From Thermodesulfovibrionia bacterium (GTDB taxonomy: Bacteria > Nitrospirota > Thermodesulfovibrionia > JACRGW01), in assembly GCA_919902995.1 (NCBI GenBank), contig CAKKSD010000005.1, forward strand, positions 7,796 to 58,219: 50,424 nucleotides of DNA, read 5' to 3'. The notes under the pieces are model-generated. The model ran no database searches and was not told where the DNA came from. It was given only the letters and a program-made list of their open reading frames with translations. The translations under genes and the position numbers were made by a program. Below, piece after piece: positions 7,523 to 45,100 of the stretch (the stretch's first letter is position 1; every line of letters begins with the position of its first letter).

Positions 7523-7578
7523 TCTTTAAGTCCTTATCTCTTAACTCCCAAACTCCTAACTCTGAACTCTGAACTCTT
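7523..7578. repeat. Heptad array (AACTCTG type), 8 units
   Basis: Eight consecutive 7-mers in one phase, drifting from TCTTTAA through AACTCCT to AACTCTG twice and AACTCTT. The array lies directly between the 3' side of riboswitch stem P1 (from 7580) and the btuB start, where an expression platform would normally be. Confidence 0.85.
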
Positions 7579-7880: not shown

Positions 7881-9011
7881 TCACCTCCCAACACATAACA
7901 TTTCGATAAATCTTTTCAATATGATTTTATTTTCTCTATGAGATCTTACAGCGATCCTTATATAGGCATTATCAAGCCCCTTGAAGTTAGAGCAATCCCT
8001 CACAAGTATACCTTTCATTTTCAATCTATCGAATATCTCCTTTGAATTATCTATCTTTAATAGATAGAAATTTACTTTAGAAGGTATAAACTTTATTCCG
8101 ATATTTTTAAACCCCTTTTCAAGAATTTGCTTTTCCTCCTTTATTAATTTTAAAGTATTATTTCTATAGACCCTATCCTTAAGCGCCACCAATGCAGCCC
8201 TCTGCGCAAGACTATTTACACTCCAAGGCTCTTTATGTTTCTTTAATCCCTCAATCAGATTTAGTGGAAAGACACCATATCCGATTCTTAAACCTGCGAG
8301 GGCATAAAATTTTGTCATCGACCTCAGTACAATGAGATAGGGATTATCTCTGACAAAATTTATAACAGAACCTTCAGGTGAGAAGTCTATAAAGGCTTCA
8401 TCAACAACAAGGTAGCAATTCTGTCTCCTTGCTTCTTCTGCTATCTTTATTACATTATCTTTTCTAAGCAATAACCCTGTCGGATTATTGGGATTGCATA
8501 GAAATGCCATTTTACATTCTTTCATCGATTCTATAAATTCCTCAGGTTTTATCGTAAACCCATCCTTTTCTTTAAGCTTTAAATGTTCAATCTGTACTCT
8601 ACTTTCTAAAGTCCCTGACCCTTGCCCCTTGACCCTTGGCCCGAGGCTTATTAGAACTGCCCTTTCATATTCAGAAAATGTCGGCATCGGTATAAGCACC
8701 CTTTCTGGTTTCAGTGACCTTACTATCAGATAGATAAGTTCTGTACATCCATTCCCGCATATGATCATTTCGGGATTTATTCCGTGATACTGAGCAAGGT
8801 TTCTCCTCAATCTCCTTGCTTCCGGGTCAGGGTAGTTATAGAGATATTTAAGATGTTTTCGTATCTCTGCTTTTATCTTCTTCGATACTCCCAGTGGATT
8901 TATGGATGAGCTAAAGTCCAGTATCCTTCTTTCCTGTATCTTAAGTTCATCTGCAAGACTATAGATATCTCCACCGTGATCAAAGAGCTGAAAATTATTT
9001 CCAGATCTCAT
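7881..9011 (-). CDS. cobD: Threonine-phosphate decarboxylase / cobalamin-pathway aminotransferase
   Basis: PLP enzyme of fold type I, CobD (Salmonella) family, which makes (R)-1-amino-2-propanol phosphate for the nucleotide-loop linker. Visible motifs: FSSSINPLG near the N-terminus, NYPDPEA, CGNGCTELIYL, NPNNPTG (residues 173-179), VDEAF, and SMTKFYALAGLRIGYG, whose Lys234 should bind PLP. I chose the ATG at 9011 because it makes an ATGA overlap with the cbiB stop; an ATG eight codons upstream is possible. Residues about 122-138 (LGPRVKGQGSGTLESR) are encoded by a 7-bp repeat array and look inserted. Last gene of the cob operon. Confidence 0.88.
   Translation of the reverse strand: MRSGNNFQLFDHGGDIYSLADELKIQERRILDFSSSINPLGVSKKIKAEIRKHLKYLYNYPDPEARRLRRNLAQYHGINPEMIICGNGCTELIYLIVRSLKPERVLIPMPTFSEYERAVLISLGPRVKGQGSGTLESRVQIEHLKLKEKDGFTIKPEEFIESMKECKMAFLCNPNNPTGLLLRKDNVIKIAEEARRQNCYLVVDEAFIDFSPEGSVINFVRDNPYLIVLRSMTKFYALAGLRIGYGVFPLNLIEGLKKHKEPWSVNSLAQRAALVALKDRVYRNNTLKLIKEEKQILEKGFKNIGIKFIPSKVNFYLLKIDNSKEIFDRLKMKGILVRDCSNFKGLDNAYIRIAVRSHRENKIILKRFIEMLCVGR
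8601..8649. repeat. Heptad array (TTGACCC type) inside cobD
   Basis: Seven 7-mers in phase; the core is CTGACCC, TTGCCCC, TTGACCC, TTGGCCC. Translated in frame as cobD residues about 122-138. The same unit type occurs at 10891-10925 in cobQ. Confidence 0.85.
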
Positions 9012-10045: not shown

Positions 10046-10062
10046 ATTAGCTCCTTTATCAT

Positions 10063-10118
10063 TTTAAACTTAGCATTTAGCATCTCCAATTTTAAATTTA
10101 AAATGTTAAATGCTAATT
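10063..10118. repeat. Heptad array (TTTAAAT/TTAGCAT type), 8 units
   Basis: Eight 7-mers in phase (TTAGCAT twice, then CTCCAAT, TTTAAAT, TTAAAAT, GTTAAAT, GCTAATT). It fills most of the cbiB-cobQ gap and reaches into the cobQ stop codon (10117-10119). Confidence 0.75.
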
Positions 10119-11646
10119 AGCTCTTTAGAAGTTCCTCAATAAACTTCATATCTATATTTTTCCTGATAATGCCTGACCATTTATTCAGGGCATCTTCCCT
10201 TAACCTCGAATAATCCACAACTTTTCCTATTAGCCTCAAACCCTTCTTTTCTCTTATAGAATTTAAAAGTTCTCGCCTGAACAGGTCATTATCAAAGATC
10301 CCGTGGATATATGTGCCCCAGACATTCCCTTTTGAAGAACCGTCCATTATCAGTGATGAGTGACGAGTGACAAGTGACGAGTTTGATGAAATTCTTTTTA
10401 GTCTGAATAAACCAGTTTCACCTTTACTTACTCCCATGTGTATTTCATAGCCCTTTAAGGTATTTTCACTCTGAACTCTTAACTCTGAATTCTTAACTAA
10501 TGTTGCCTCCACCTGTGATGTTATCTTTGTTTTTTTGAGTGTTGTTTCTATACCGAGAAATTCAAATCCCCTTACCACTTTATGATTGCTTTCTACTCCA
10601 AATGGATCGAGTATCTTCTTGCCTATCATCTGATAACCGCCACAGACACCTATGAGTGGAATGTCTTTTTTTATGGCCCGTCTAATGCTATCTTCTATTC
10701 CGTTTTCACGGAGAAAAAGGAGGTCTTCCACTGTATTCTTTGACCCGGGGATTATGAGGAGATCTGCATTTTCAATATCCCCTTCCCTCAATGAATAGAC
10801 AAGATCAACATCAGGTTCGTATAAGAATGGGTCAAAATCTGTGAAGTTAGAAATATACCTCAGTCTAATAACTACAATCTTTATTTTTGTAACCCTTTCC
10901 CCTTTGCCCCTTGCCCCATTAATCCTTTCTATCGGAATACCGTCTTCTTCATGAAGTCCGAGGTCACCGAGATAAGGAATTACGCCTATAACAGGTATGT
11001 TTGTCTTTTCATAAATCATTTTAAGCCCTGGCATCAGGATCTCCATGTCACCCCTGAACTTATTGATAATAAATGCCTTGATATAATCGGCATCTCCATT
11101 GAGGAGTCCGACAGTACCGTAGAATGATGCGAATACACCTCCCTTATCTATATCCCCGATAAGGATCACAGGTGCACCTGTATGACGGGCTACCCTCATG
11201 TTTACAACCTCATCCTTGCAAAGGTTGATCTCTGCAGGGCTTCCAGCCCCTTCGATTATAATGAGATCATGTTTCCTTGAAAGACTTTCATATGCCTCAG
11301 TTACGGCCCTCCAAGCCTCTTTTTTAAACGAATAGTATTCTGTTGCTTTCATATTGGAATGAACCCTGCCATTCATAATCATCTGACAGCTCGATTCACC
11401 CGATGCTTTTAACAATATAGGGTTCATATCGACCGAAGGCTCGATACCTGCTGCCTCTGCCTGAAGTGCCTGTGCACGGCCTATTTCGCCACCCTCTTTT
11501 GTTATGAAAGAATTTAGGGCCATGTTCTGTGCCTTAAAAGGTGCAACATTTACACCTCTGTCCCTGAATATTCTGCACAGACCAGCAACTATGAGGCTCT
11601 TGCCGACACCAGAACCTGTCCCCTGTATCATCAATGCCTTAGACAA
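10117..11646 (-). CDS. cobQ: Cobyric acid synthase CobQ (glutamine-dependent)
   Basis: ATP-dependent amidation of four corrin side chains using glutamine. The N-terminal synthetase domain has the P-loop GTGSGVGKS (residues 9-17) and DIDKGGVFASFYGT. The C-terminal triad-type amidotransferase domain has GVCGGYQMIG with catalytic Cys335 and YIHGIFDND with the His. Start is TTG at 11646, with AGAGGG as SD. Length (509 aa) slightly exceeds the norm, and three segments are encoded by 7-bp repeats: about 242-252, 383-394 and 421-432 (NSSLVTRHSSLI). All look like surface-loop insertions. Mid-operon between cobC and cbiB. Confidence 0.94.
   Translation of the reverse strand: MSKALMIQGTGSGVGKSLIVAGLCRIFRDRGVNVAPFKAQNMALNSFITKEGGEIGRAQALQAEAAGIEPSVDMNPILLKASGESSCQMIMNGRVHSNMKATEYYSFKKEAWRAVTEAYESLSRKHDLIIIEGAGSPAEINLCKDEVVNMRVARHTGAPVILIGDIDKGGVFASFYGTVGLLNGDADYIKAFIINKFRGDMEILMPGLKMIYEKTNIPVIGVIPYLGDLGLHEEDGIPIERINGARGKGERVTKIKIVVIRLRYISNFTDFDPFLYEPDVDLVYSLREGDIENADLLIIPGSKNTVEDLLFLRENGIEDSIRRAIKKDIPLIGVCGGYQMIGKKILDPFGVESNHKVVRGFEFLGIETTLKKTKITSQVEATLVKNSELRVQSENTLKGYEIHMGVSKGETGLFRLKRISSNSSLVTRHSSLIMDGSSKGNVWGTYIHGIFDNDLFRRELLNSIREKKGLRLIGKVVDYSRLREDALNKWSGIIRKNIDMKFIEELLKS
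10352..10386. repeat. Heptad array (AGTGACG type) inside cobQ
   Basis: Five 7-mers in phase (AGTGATG, AGTGACG, AGTGACA, AGTGACG, AGTTTGA). Read in cobQ as SSLVTRH-type residues near 421-432. Same unit as at 13227-13261, 14485-14512 and 16950-16977. Confidence 0.88.
10467..10501. repeat. Heptad array (AACTCTG type) inside cobQ
   Basis: Five 7-mers in phase (CACTCTG, AACTCTT, AACTCTG, AATTCTT, AACTAAT). Translated as cobQ residues about 383-394 (LVKNSELRVQSE). Same unit as 7523-7578. Confidence 0.88.
10891..10925. repeat. Heptad array (TGCCCCT type) inside cobQ
   Basis: Five 7-mers in phase (AACCCTT, TCCCCTT, TGCCCCT, TGCCCCA, TTAATCC). Translated as cobQ residues about 242-252 (INGARGKGERV). 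Confidence 0.82.
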
Positions 11647-12402: not shown

Positions 12403-13259
12403 ATAAGTACCAGTATCAAAAAGATAGCCTCGGTAATTTCACTAATTGCTCCAAGCGTATCTCCGTTAAGTCCGCCAAATCTTTTATTGAAAATATTAAC
12501 CCAGACATGACATAAAAGATACATAACAACAGGTAATGCACCATAAAAGATGTACTGCCTTCCCGGTTTGTAATGACTGAAGAATACAGGTAGTAACATT
12601 ATCAATAGAAAAAGCATTAAGGTAGAAACAATAACTTCTTTAAGTCCAATCCTGCCTATAAATATCCTTCCGAGTCCTTCCTTCATGGATGGCCTGCCAT
12701 GAAACATCGAAATAATCATTGTCCATTTCGGCAGAACAGGCATCAATAAAAGGGATGAATTGTAAGTGAAGGATGAAAATTGAGATAGACCCTGTAAAGA
12801 AAGATATTTAATAGCCAGTACAAAAACTATCGCTAATACACCTGCAGGTCCGGTTGCGCCATCTTTCATTACAGCAAGTCTTTTCTCTCTGTCTGACTCT
12901 GTGTTCCCTTCAGATTTCACTGCAGTTGCATCGAAAGTATCTGCAAGCCCGTCGAGATGGAACCCGCCATTTGATAAGACAAGCACAAGAAGAACCATTG
13001 CCAGAACAAGGTCGTGTGGAAAAACTATACCTGCAATATAGTCTGTAGCCAGAAGCAATGTCCCCTGGATAATCCCTACCACAACAAATGCCTGCGTGCT
13101 CTTTGAAATATCCTCTTCATTAACATTCGTAGTATTTCTGACAGGTATTATCGTCAGGAACTGAATTGCAAGGAGGATCTGCGTGATGCATGATGCATGA
13201 TGAGTAATATGTATTAAGTTATTTTTCTCGTCACTCGTCACTCGTAACTCATCACTCAT
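12381..13259 (-). CDS. cobS: Adenosylcobinamide-GDP ribazoletransferase (cobalamin synthase) CobS
   Basis: Membrane enzyme joining AdoCbi-GDP and alpha-ribazole. Conserved [14 protein letters not shown], then [16 protein letters not shown] (metal-binding Asp residues), [17 protein letters not shown], and C-terminal [16 protein letters not shown]. About six membrane helices. The first 27 residues ([12 protein letters not shown]...) are encoded by a heptad array and are not family sequence; the family normally starts at the ILLAIQF segment, but no ATG, GTG or TTG is in frame there, so the repeat-encoded start at 13259 seems to be used. It overlaps the cobT stop by 8 bp and cobC by 22 bp. Confidence 0.92.
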
Positions 13260-16586: not shown

Positions 16587-17644
16587 TTCGAGACACCATT
16601 TAAATATCCGTCCATCTCCTCTATCCCCTCAACTATCCTTGGACCGAGCCTGTGGAGACGATCGCTCATATAAAAAACTGCATCCTTTTTGACTGCTGTC
16701 ACCATCGATATTTTCCTCAGAAGTCCATCAGAGACATCCTTCATGTTCATATTTCCTATCCCGATGAAGATTATATCCGGGTCTTGATAAATAATTTCTT
16801 CTATCGAATATTTCGGGTATGGCACTTTAGCCTTTGAGGCTATATTTTGAGCGCTGAGCAGTGTTACTACATCATCCATGGCAGTCCCCGGGCCTGCTAC
16901 AATCAGAGGTTCAGGCCAGATGATGAAGAGGATCCTCTTTTTGGGTGGCGAGTGACGAGTGACGAGTGACGAGTTCTTATATTTACTTGTCTCTCGTCTC
17001 TTGTCTCTGAATTTATTAATAGCTTCTTCTATCCTATTTGCAAGCTTATCCGCTCTTTCCTTTACTCCCAGTACTGACCCCATTTCCCTGATCCCCTGTG
17101 GCAGTTCTGAAAGTCGTCTCGCTCTGAATACATAGGTCTTTACATTAAGTGAACGGAGTCTATCTCCAAACTCCTTCGGGTTTCCATCCGTGGTCATAAG
17201 TACAATATCTGGTTTTAATGAAACAACTGTCTCAAGTGATGGATTCACCATTCCTCCAATTTTTGGCTTTTTCTTTGCCTCCTCAGGATAATCGCAGTAG
17301 GTAGTTACGCCTACAAGTCTGGCCTCGAGTCCAAGGGCATAGACTATCTCTGTTATGCTCGGAGCCAGGGATACAATACGCTCTGGTGGTTCACCTGCAA
17401 ATGTAAGAGGTACAAATTTAAAATTTAAAATTAAACATGCAAAAATAAAATTCAAAGTCCAGAAAATTGTCATTCCGTGCTTGACACGGAATCCAGTTCC
17501 CTTTTTATTAGTTTCCTGCTTTTGGAAAGACGGCACATGGATTCCTGCTTCCGCAGGAATGACAATGAGGGGATTTCTATACTCCTTTTTGCTATTTGTA
17601 GCATGCGGGGTTTGATTTGTAATTTTAATCTTTGCTTTTTTCAT
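16583..17644 (-). CDS. btuF: Corrinoid substrate-binding protein BtuF with repeat-derived N-terminus
   Basis: Periplasmic binding protein of the helical-backbone class. The mature family domain starts near residue 84 with RIVSLAPSITEIVYALG, then VGVTTYCDYP and PDIVLMTTDGNP. The 57 residues before Met58 are encoded by heptad and palindromic repeats (PAEAGIHVPSFQKQ is typical of the latter). A secretion-type hydrophobic run (TIFWTLNFIFACLILNF) follows Met58. Two starts are possible: ATG 17644 with SD GAGAGA, or ATG 17473, created inside the palindromic repeat, with no SD. Residues about 212-232 (SSLVTRHSPPK and before) come from another heptad array. First gene of the operon. Confidence 0.87.
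   Translation of the reverse strand: MKKAKIKITNQTPHATNSKKEYRNPLIVIPAEAGIHVPSFQKQETNKKGTGFRVKHGMTIFWTLNFIFACLILNFKFVPLTFAGEPPERIVSLAPSITEIVYALGLEARLVGVTTYCDYPEEAKKKPKIGGMVNPSLETVVSLKPDIVLMTTDGNPKEFGDRLRSLNVKTYVFRARRLSELPQGIREMGSVLGVKERADKLANRIEEAINKFRDKRRETSKYKNSSLVTRHSPPKKRILFIIWPEPLIVAGPGTAMDDVVTLLSAQNIASKAKVPYPKYSIEEIIYQDPDIIFIGIGNMNMKDVSDGLLRKISMVTAVKKDAVFYMSDRLHRLGPRIVEGIEEMDGYLNGVSK
16950..17012. repeat. Heptad array inside btuF, two unit types in one phase
   Basis: Nine 7-mers: GAGTGAC three times, GAGTTCT, TATATTT, ACTTGTC, TCTCGTC, TCTTGTC, TCTGAAT. Phase is kept across the unit change. Encodes btuF residues about 212-232. Confidence 0.9.
17411..17466. repeat. Heptad array (TTAAAAT type) encoding the btuF hydrophobic segment
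   Basis: Eight 7-mers in phase (TACAAAT, TTAAAAT twice, TAAACAT, GCAAAAA, TAAAATT, CAAAGTC, CAGAAAA). On the coding strand this AT-rich array reads as the hydrophobic run LNFIFACLILNFKF, that is, the signal-peptide core. Confidence 0.65.
17469..17563. repeat. Palindromic repeat with GTCATTCC/GGAATGAC ends, copy 1
   Basis: The left end GTCATTCCGTGCTTGACACG is itself palindromic (TTCCGTG/CACGGAA). The right end holds ATTCCTGCTTCCGCAGGAAT, then GAC. A second copy, inverted, is at 41765-41853. Non-coding MITE-like size; here it is read as btuF residues 28-58 and supplies Met58. Confidence 0.85.
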
Positions 17645-43913: not shown

Positions 43914-45100
43914 TCAGGGTTAAAAGAGAAATCTGTACAGGCTGTGAGATATGTATCAGCAGCTGTCCCTATGCTGCTATAGAGATGATTGAGGATAAGG
44001 CGATTATTACAGAAATGTGCAATCTTTGCAAGGCCTGCCTGTCCTCCTGCCCTGAGGGGGCAATTGAAGAAATAGTTGAAAATTCCGAGTTCCGAGTTCC
44101 GAGTTCCGAGTTAACTCAATATAAGGGGGTCTGGGTATTTGCAGAACAAAGGAGAGGAAAACTCCACGACGTCTCATTAGAACTCTTAGGAGAAGGTAGG
44201 CGACTTGCTGATACCCTTTCAACAGAACTAGCAGCCGTTATCATAGGAAGTAAAATAGAGAAAGAGGCAGACATCCTTATAACCTACGGTGCAGATAAGG
44301 TCTTTATTGCTGATGACCCTTTTCTTTCTGATTTTCATGATGATTCCTATGGCCATATACTTGCCGGACTTATTGAAAAAGAGAAACCAGAAATACTACT
44401 TTCAGGAGCCACATCTATTGGTAGGTCATTTATACCAAAGGTAGCAGCGAGATTGAGGACAGGTCTTACGGCAGATTGTACAAGCCTAGACCTAAATGGA
44501 AGAACCCTTCTACAGAAAAGGCCTGCCTTTGGAGGAAACATTATGGCTGTTATAATATGCCCGAATAGAAGGCCACAGATGGCGACAGTAAGGCCTAAGG
44601 TATTCAAGAAGCCAATCCCGAAAAGTGGTAGAAAGGGTAAAATCGTAAAAGTTCCTGTCACGGAAGATATCCCTTTAAGGACAAAAACTCTTGAATTTGT
44701 AAAAGACCTTACAAGCATAGTAAATATCTCTGATGCAGATATAATAATCGCTGGTGGAAGGGGTCTTGGCGAAGCAAAGAATTTCAGATTGCTGGAAGAA
44801 CTCGCAGATGTTTTTGGAGGGGCTATAGGTGCATCAAGAGCCGCCGTAGATGCAGGATGGATTCCCTATGCACATCAGATTGGACAGACAGGAAGGACTG
44901 TCTCGCCGAGACTTTATATAGCCTGTGGCATTTCAGGTGCAGTCCAACATCTTGTAGGAATGCAATCTTCTGATATAATTATAGCTATAAACAAAGACCC
45001 AGGTGCACCTATATTTAATGTGGCTACTTATGGAGTTGTTGGAGATCTTTTTGAAGTAATACCTCCACTTACTAAAAAGATAAAGGAGTTTAGAAGTTGA
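43910..45100 (+). CDS. etfA: Electron transfer flavoprotein alpha subunit with N-terminal 2[4Fe-4S] ferredoxin
   Basis: 396 aa. An N-terminal ferredoxin domain (1-55) has CTGCEICISSCPYAAI and CNLCKACLSSCPEGAI, two complete cluster motifs. The EtfA domain follows (from about 70: GVWVFAEQRRGKLHDVSLEL), with FAD-binding GGRGLGEAKNFRLLEELA, GASRAAVDAGWIPYAHQIGQ and CGISGAVQHLVGM. The ferredoxin type is known from anaerobes in which ETF connects to Fe-S electron carriers. Residues about 58-69 (NSEFRVPSSELT) joining the two domains are encoded by a heptad array. Confidence 0.95.
   Translation: MIRVKREICTGCEICISSCPYAAIEMIEDKAIITEMCNLCKACLSSCPEGAIEEIVENSEFRVPSSELTQYKGVWVFAEQRRGKLHDVSLELLGEGRRLADTLSTELAAVIIGSKIEKEADILITYGADKVFIADDPFLSDFHDDSYGHILAGLIEKEKPEILLSGATSIGRSFIPKVAARLRTGLTADCTSLDLNGRTLLQKRPAFGGNIMAVIICPNRRPQMATVRPKVFKKPIPKSGRKGKIVKVPVTEDIPLRTKTLEFVKDLTSIVNISDADIIIAGGRGLGEAKNFRLLEELADVFGGAIGASRAAVDAGWIPYAHQIGQTGRTVSPRLYIACGISGAVQHLVGMQSSDIIIAINKDPGAPIFNVATYGVVGDLFEVIPPLTKKIKEFRS
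44081..44115. repeat. Heptad array (AGTTCCG type) inside etfA
   Basis: Five 7-mers in phase: AATTCCG, AGTTCCG three times, AGTTAAC. The most regular coding array of the window; encodes the linker between the ferredoxin and ETF domains. Confidence 0.92.

Follow-up and report, generated by a model that had tools for sequence, protein, structure and literature searches.

Heptanucleotide repeat arrays recur at three tolerant loops of CobQ in Nitrospirota

The window, the whole stretch of 50,424 nt from a Thermodesulfovibrionia bacterium that was analysed here, contains a cobalamin cluster in which cobQ is surrounded by cobD, cbiB, cobC, cobS, cobT, and a btuF-like gene. By family profile match, the cobQ product is the equivalog of NCBIfam cobQ/PRK00784. 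The gene and its three period-7 arrays are as follows.

10117-11646, minus strand: cobQ, adenosylcobyric acid synthase, 509 aa (open reading frame [ORF]; NCBIfam NF001989 and TIGR00313 over cutoff)
10893-10917, minus strand: site 1 array, unit GGGGCAA, 7/8-nt mixture (CDS nt 729-754; residues 244-252)
10468-10498 (end at 10496 or 10498), minus strand: site 2 array, unit GAGTTAA/GAGTTCA (CDS nt 1150-1179; residues 384-393)
10349-10382, minus strand: site 3 array, unit GTCACTC, peptide SSLVTRH (CDS nt 1264-1298; residues 422-433)

On the coding strand, the arrays read GGGGCAAGGGGCAAAGGGGAAAGGG (site 1), TTAAGAATTCAGAGTTAAGAGTTCAGAGT (site 2), and ACTCGTCACTTGTCACTCGTCACTCATCACTGAT (site 3). Site 1 is the weakest of the three, being short and imperfect, with 7- and 8-nt steps mixed. 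Since selection on the protein would give a period of 21 nt, a period of 7 nt places the arrays at the DNA level. As proposed in a first-pass annotation of this DNA, all three arrays are in frame and lie between conserved motifs; the catalytic Cys (residue 334 in this CobQ) and the HGIF motif, both invariant or nearly so, are intact. For comparison, CobQs were aligned from three sets: 30 from genomes of the class, a further 20 that the same search had yielded, and 80 belonging to named genomes. Those records of the named collection that are related to the source genome are Nitrospirota/Thermodesulfovibrionales metagenome assemblies. The residues found at the three sites were sought in the homologues from distant taxa and are not shared there, in agreement with the annotation. 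The arrays are DNA-level repeats and are neither ordinary protein sequence nor private to the source genome.

A total of 51 period-7 arrays was counted in 58 CobQs from the phylum, and 49 of them were located at sites 1-3, which make up 12% of the protein (binomial 3e-42, shared descent ignored). Arrays of period 8 and 9 at these sites numbered 11 and 7, respectively. Distinct units amounted to 12 of 18 at site 1, 15 of 26 at site 2, and 7 of 10 at site 3. When the sites were excluded from the CobQ tree, changes of state numbered at least 17, 16, and 9 at sites 1, 2, and 3, which leaves a large number of independent events despite shared descent. Units observed in relatives include AAATTTC, AAAATTC, AGGGGTC, ACGGTTC, AACGTTC, ACTCGTC, AGCGTTC, and ACAGAGC at site 1; AAGAGTT, AGGGATC, AGCCATC, ATGGCTC with AGCTATG, and AAGATGG at site 2; and ACTCGTC, ACGCATC, and ACGCTTC at site 3. 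This presence of different heptad arrays at the same three loops across the class had been overlooked in the first-pass annotation. The CobQ of G023, encoded on a contig of 362 kb, carries arrays at all three sites, and even outside the phylum, in the Omnitrophota CobQ L120, site 1 contains a heptad, GAATGCA, of different sequence. Many relatives have a CobQ without arrays.

Tolerance of the protein at these positions was assessed from 72 CobQs of other phyla, in which sites 1-3 are the most variable and gap-rich stretches (entropy 2.2-2.9 vs. 1.5 elsewhere; gaps 6-42% vs. 0.5%). An AlphaFold2 model of CobQ had a mean pLDDT of 84.7, with values below 50 in segments 139-146, 234-250, and 420-429. 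The second of these segments overlaps site 1, a predicted linker between two domains, and the third overlaps site 3; site 2 is predicted to form the turn between two long strands (365-382 and 396-408). All three sites are thus modelled as loops, sites 1 and 3 being disordered in the prediction. A sequence search for a solved relative of CobQ found none. The median length of the site 3 loop is 17 residues with an array and 9.5 without, and the difference of approximately 7 aa corresponds to three heptads. At site 1, the loop has 20 residues compared with 15 in other phyla, while site 2 is about equal in length to that of other CobQs (20 vs. 18-19 residues) and is not lengthened.

The annotation had described three separate insertions in one gene, a description clearly borne out at site 3 only. 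There, the G020 gene is shorter than this cobQ by exactly 21 nt, or three units, a clean indel at the DNA level. The site 2 unit is common to the nearest relatives G001, G002, and G020, with similar units further out; this array is old and adds no length, which does not support an insertion event in this gene. Site 1, with its mixed period of 7 and 8, is no clean heptad insertion. At the same site, the arrays are of period 8 in the closest relatives, G001 and G002, and of period 9 in L015 and L016; array-making is therefore centered on 7 nt, but not strictly bound to it.

Replacement of arrays was followed in pairs of intact genes. Between L007 and L016 (85% nucleotide identity over cobQ), the flanks of site 1 are shared and enclose AAATTTC units in the former and a 9-nt array in the latter, while site 2 contains a GAGTTCA array and an inverted pair, respectively. 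The site 1 arrays of L015 and L019 (83% identity) differ likewise, and within one family the site 1 loop is occupied by AAATTTC, by ACGGTTC, by a 9-nt array, or by a decayed array. These intact pairs show the same site 1 swap as G028 and G052, a pair that was not relied on alone because the G052 gene could be either a pseudogene or the result of misassembly. The latter gene (L161, G052:C28) is broken by a deletion of approximately 46 nt just downstream of site 1, which shifts the frame and is followed by a TAG codon; array length as the cause of this frameshift was rejected, the deletion being responsible. Array turnover is not uniformly fast since, in two 20-kb pieces (40 kb) compared with the sister species G028, three of four arrays lie inside aligned blocks and one lies in a gap.

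Coding arrays begin in every codon phase (34/26/32 for 92 arrays), which bears out the suggestion that heptads can be inserted in any phase. Of the coding arrays, 15 of 92 had a stop codon on the sense strand; of the intergenic ones that lie between genes of the same orientation, 23 of 34 did (Fisher 8e-8). The expected difference in orientation is thus found, but it is partly circular and gives an upper estimate of the filter, as genes were simple ORF calls and an ORF has no in-frame stop. An inverted partner (≤2 mismatches) was present within 60 nt of 54 of 193 arrays, about a quarter, and inverted pairs with matching units (≤1 mismatch) were more frequent than by permutation (16 vs. 5.3, p ≤ 0.002). 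Site 2 of the CobQ genes L014, L015, L016, L019, and L017 consists of an in-frame inverted pair with heptad arms, which folds as DNA with z = -3.5 in L019 and z = -4.8 in L017. When the three arrays of the present cobQ were tested for folding, none folded. In G032 (C11:11590-13121), at least seven AAGATTC/TTGAATC arrays of alternating orientation are found within 1.5 kb.

Across the window, 13 period-7 arrays were detected (score ≥ 10) vs. 0.1 per first-order shuffle, and the other periods among 4-13 and 15 gave 0-3 arrays each. Besides those in cobQ, the following were recorded.

7551-7577, no strand assigned: AACTCTG array, intergenic, unit as in cobQ site 2
8619-8642, minus strand: GCAAGGG array in cobD, unit similar to cobQ site 1
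10056-10116, no strand assigned: AT-rich heptads with inverted arms, intergenic, in the cobQ/cbiB gap (array 10088-10116; DNA fold z = -2.3)
13180-13259, no strand assigned: two arrays, TGCATGA and CTCGTCA, at the cobT-cobS junction
16945-17008, minus strand: in-frame GTCACTC-like arrays forming an inverted pair within the btuF-like gene (DNA fold z = -2.4, weaker than in L019 and L017)
44083-44112, plus strand: in-frame TTCCGAG array, 4.3 copies, within an electron-transfer flavoprotein alpha-like gene

The arrays at the cobT-cobS junction are probably spacer, because the cobS family match starts at ORF residue 26-30. Several units recur within 7 kb of the window: AACTCTG at 7551 and 10468, GTCACTC at 10352, 13227, and 16945, and CCCTTGC at 8619 and 10893. 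Local copying between arrays was considered as a general rule and rejected; pooled pairs seemed enriched, but beyond 60 nt the enrichment was gone without two dense clusters of one genome. Positions 1-1324 contain long repeats in tandem (66, 78, and 462 bp), which seem to encode a repetitive protein rich in Pro/Glu and truncated at the edge of the window.

Genomes were read as samples, and arrays were scored with +1 for a match and -1.5 or -2 for a mismatch, using thresholds that vary from one count to another. In 421 kb sampled from the source genome, 37 period-7 arrays were counted vs. 0-9 for non-multiple periods. Period 7 reached 66-114 per Mb in heptad-rich genomes vs. 0-36 per Mb for the non-multiple periods, two more such genomes having 104-114 per Mb; in the relatives G017 and G031, it was absent or at background, not above other periods. 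A scan for TCANNNN arrays (the control effectively being ACTNNNN) gave 0 to >400 matches per genome in 61 genomes, with contrasts inside families f4 (1 vs. 433), f5, and f6 (4 vs. 272). The number of CobQ arrays tracks the heptad load of the genome (Spearman rho 0.78, n = 48, relatedness ignored), with a total of two CobQ arrays in 21 low-load genomes and of 40 in 22 high-load genomes. In five heptad-rich genomes, arrays occurred at 0.064 per kb of coding sequence and at 1.15 per kb of CobQ, an enrichment of approximately 18-fold over the coding background of the same genomes (Poisson 3e-9, relatedness ignored). About half of the arrays are intragenic, and the source-genome genes containing them include mutS, alaS, valS (two arrays), ileS, and gatA. 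Loss of mismatch repair was ruled out as a cause, MutS being found in 60 of 61 genomes. The MutS_I match exceeds the DNA required by its profile positions by 39 nt in G002 (C132:454-828) and by 12 nt in G045 (C6:144258-144602), and MutS loops may hold inserts too. Identical or one-off units made up 10.9% of comparisons within a genome, 6.4% between genomes, and 2.5% for letter-shuffled units; because units recur above the letter-shuffled level, some copying or sequence preference among them is likely.

We consider it probable that a lineage-specific process acting on DNA makes arrays of approximately 7 nt, that selection filters them, and that tolerant loops are refilled. The comparisons themselves show arrays with a preferred step of approximately 7 nt and many unit sequences, present in certain lineages only, which recur at the same sites, turn over there, and persist in coding sequence subject to frame, stop codons, and tolerance of the protein. 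As the most likely source of the arrays, we infer errors of replication or repair, through slippage or hairpin-assisted template switching. Its step would be approximately 7 nt, with nearly any unit sequence and sometimes with two inverted arms forming heptad hairpins. Arrays would arise genome-wide, in some lineages only; in genes, selection would retain those that are stop-free and amount to net multiples of 3, where the protein tolerates change. The three CobQ loops would thereby be filled repeatedly by unrelated arrays that later decay or are replaced, the peptides themselves being presumably neutral. Against this reading, slippage cannot convert a unit into an unrelated one, so that replacement needs a deletion and a new array, and a loop caught between these two steps was not seen among the CobQs compared. 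The recurrence of units above the shuffled level and the periods of 8 and 9 at the same sites were also counted against it.

A dedicated mode of spreading, in which tiny mobile or template-copied arrays, or heptad hairpins that give rise to single arrays, are placed by repair copying from other arrays or by an enzyme such as a REP-associated Y1 transposase, is a possible but doubtful alternative. It would account for the inverted partners of about a quarter of the arrays, for the excess of matching inverted pairs, for the in-frame hairpin elements at site 2 of L019 and L017, and for the recurrence of units within genomes. Yet no fixed sequence, boundary, or target duplication accompanies the arrays, the units of arrays 0.5-7 kb apart are no more alike than by permutation once the two dense clusters are left out, and the three arrays of this cobQ do not fold. 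Copy number of Y1_Tnp correlates with heptad load (rho 0.57; family means 0.49), a correlation that is only a lead, as phylogeny and the overall mobile load are confounders; Y1_Tnp genes are present in several genomes with zero heptads, and G000 has one Y1_Tnp copy. It is judged improbable that variable arrays of approximately 7 nt are written into chromosomes, and continually replaced, by a system dedicated to this task and specific to the lineage, either an enzyme or a tiny mobile hairpin; if true, the tolerant loops of essential proteins would be a moving record of its activity. Selection of the repeats in CobQ as functional peptide modules, such as an interaction tag or a flexible linker of fixed length, is highly unlikely. 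The site 1 linker is indeed kept at 18-23 residues in array-bearing genes, but peptides that occupy one site bear no resemblance to each other in sequence or charge (SRFTVHGSR, NFKFQISN, SGVRGQGSG, SSLVTRY), many relatives do without them, and selection on peptides cannot see a DNA period of 7. That the arrays are low complexity by chance, plain protein sequence, or an artefact of metagenome assembly is scarcely credible: the site 1 array is short and imperfect and many of the genomes are metagenome assemblies, but shuffles, period specificity, and homologues speak against it, as does the presence of comparable arrays at these sites in dozens of assemblies made independently, some of them on contigs above 300 kb such as that of G023.

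By the accounts in PMC4679880 and PMC4692102, heptads are the commonest unit among the long simple sequence repeats of Mrazek et al. 2007, with a patchy phylogeny for which polymerase slippage was proposed. The present arrays resemble these in their head-to-tail 7-nt units beyond chance, with period 7 above neighboring periods, and in their sporadic distribution among related lineages (0 to >400 matches per genome); they differ in the very many units per genome, many inside housekeeping coding sequence, and in the repeated replacement at the same protein sites. The TAACTGA heptamers of Beggiatoaceae and Cyanobacteria (MacGregor 2015; PMC4679880) occur in ORFs only in the stop-free orientation, mostly at the protein periphery, and the frame and stop logic of heptads was described earlier for them. 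Their unit is fixed, its position is mostly immediately upstream of start codons, and recurrent internal sites were not described (PMC4679880). Heptads in ORFs in a stop-free orientation are common to both cases, whereas dozens of units are found here, with about half of the arrays inside genes. In the Nostoc tRNA-Leu intron, the P6b stem is a hairpin with arms of degenerate heptads, with repeated independent shifts between two repeat classes (PMC3488679, PMC4476775). One tolerant site is likewise held by alternative repeat classes in CobQ, but in protein-coding loops and with many classes instead of two in a non-coding RNA loop; a heptad stem-loop of the P6b type is absent from the arrays of this cobQ and present at site 2 of L019 and L017. 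Intragenic REP and RPE palindromes are short in-frame repeats in housekeeping and repair genes, as are the present arrays, and two Xanthomonas species have different REPs at approximately one and the same position in recB (PMC3733652). REPs combine fixed GTAG or CGTC tags with palindromes (PMC3733652); unlike REP, REPIN, and RPE elements, the cobQ arrays are neither palindromic nor fixed in sequence.

Although heptads have ranked since 2007 as the commonest long microsatellite of bacteria, their cause is not agreed on. A comparative assay is provided by CobQ, with one gene, three sites rewritten by unrelated heptads, dozens of genomes, and a sharp on/off contrast between close families, which makes the cause of heptads testable through genome comparison. 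Heptads supply new peptide to housekeeping proteins (MutS, tRNA synthetases, CobQ), and such loops should not be taken for adaptive inserts.

Two further elements were encountered among the relatives. At L262:3253-3325, a dispersed palindromic element starting with GTCATTCC...GGAATCC was found, which has many matches in the sister genome G028 and is unrelated to the heptads. The site 1 loop of the L025 CobQ reads EGTPCHGEPVEP, which we take to resemble another dispersed REP-like element, translated in frame.
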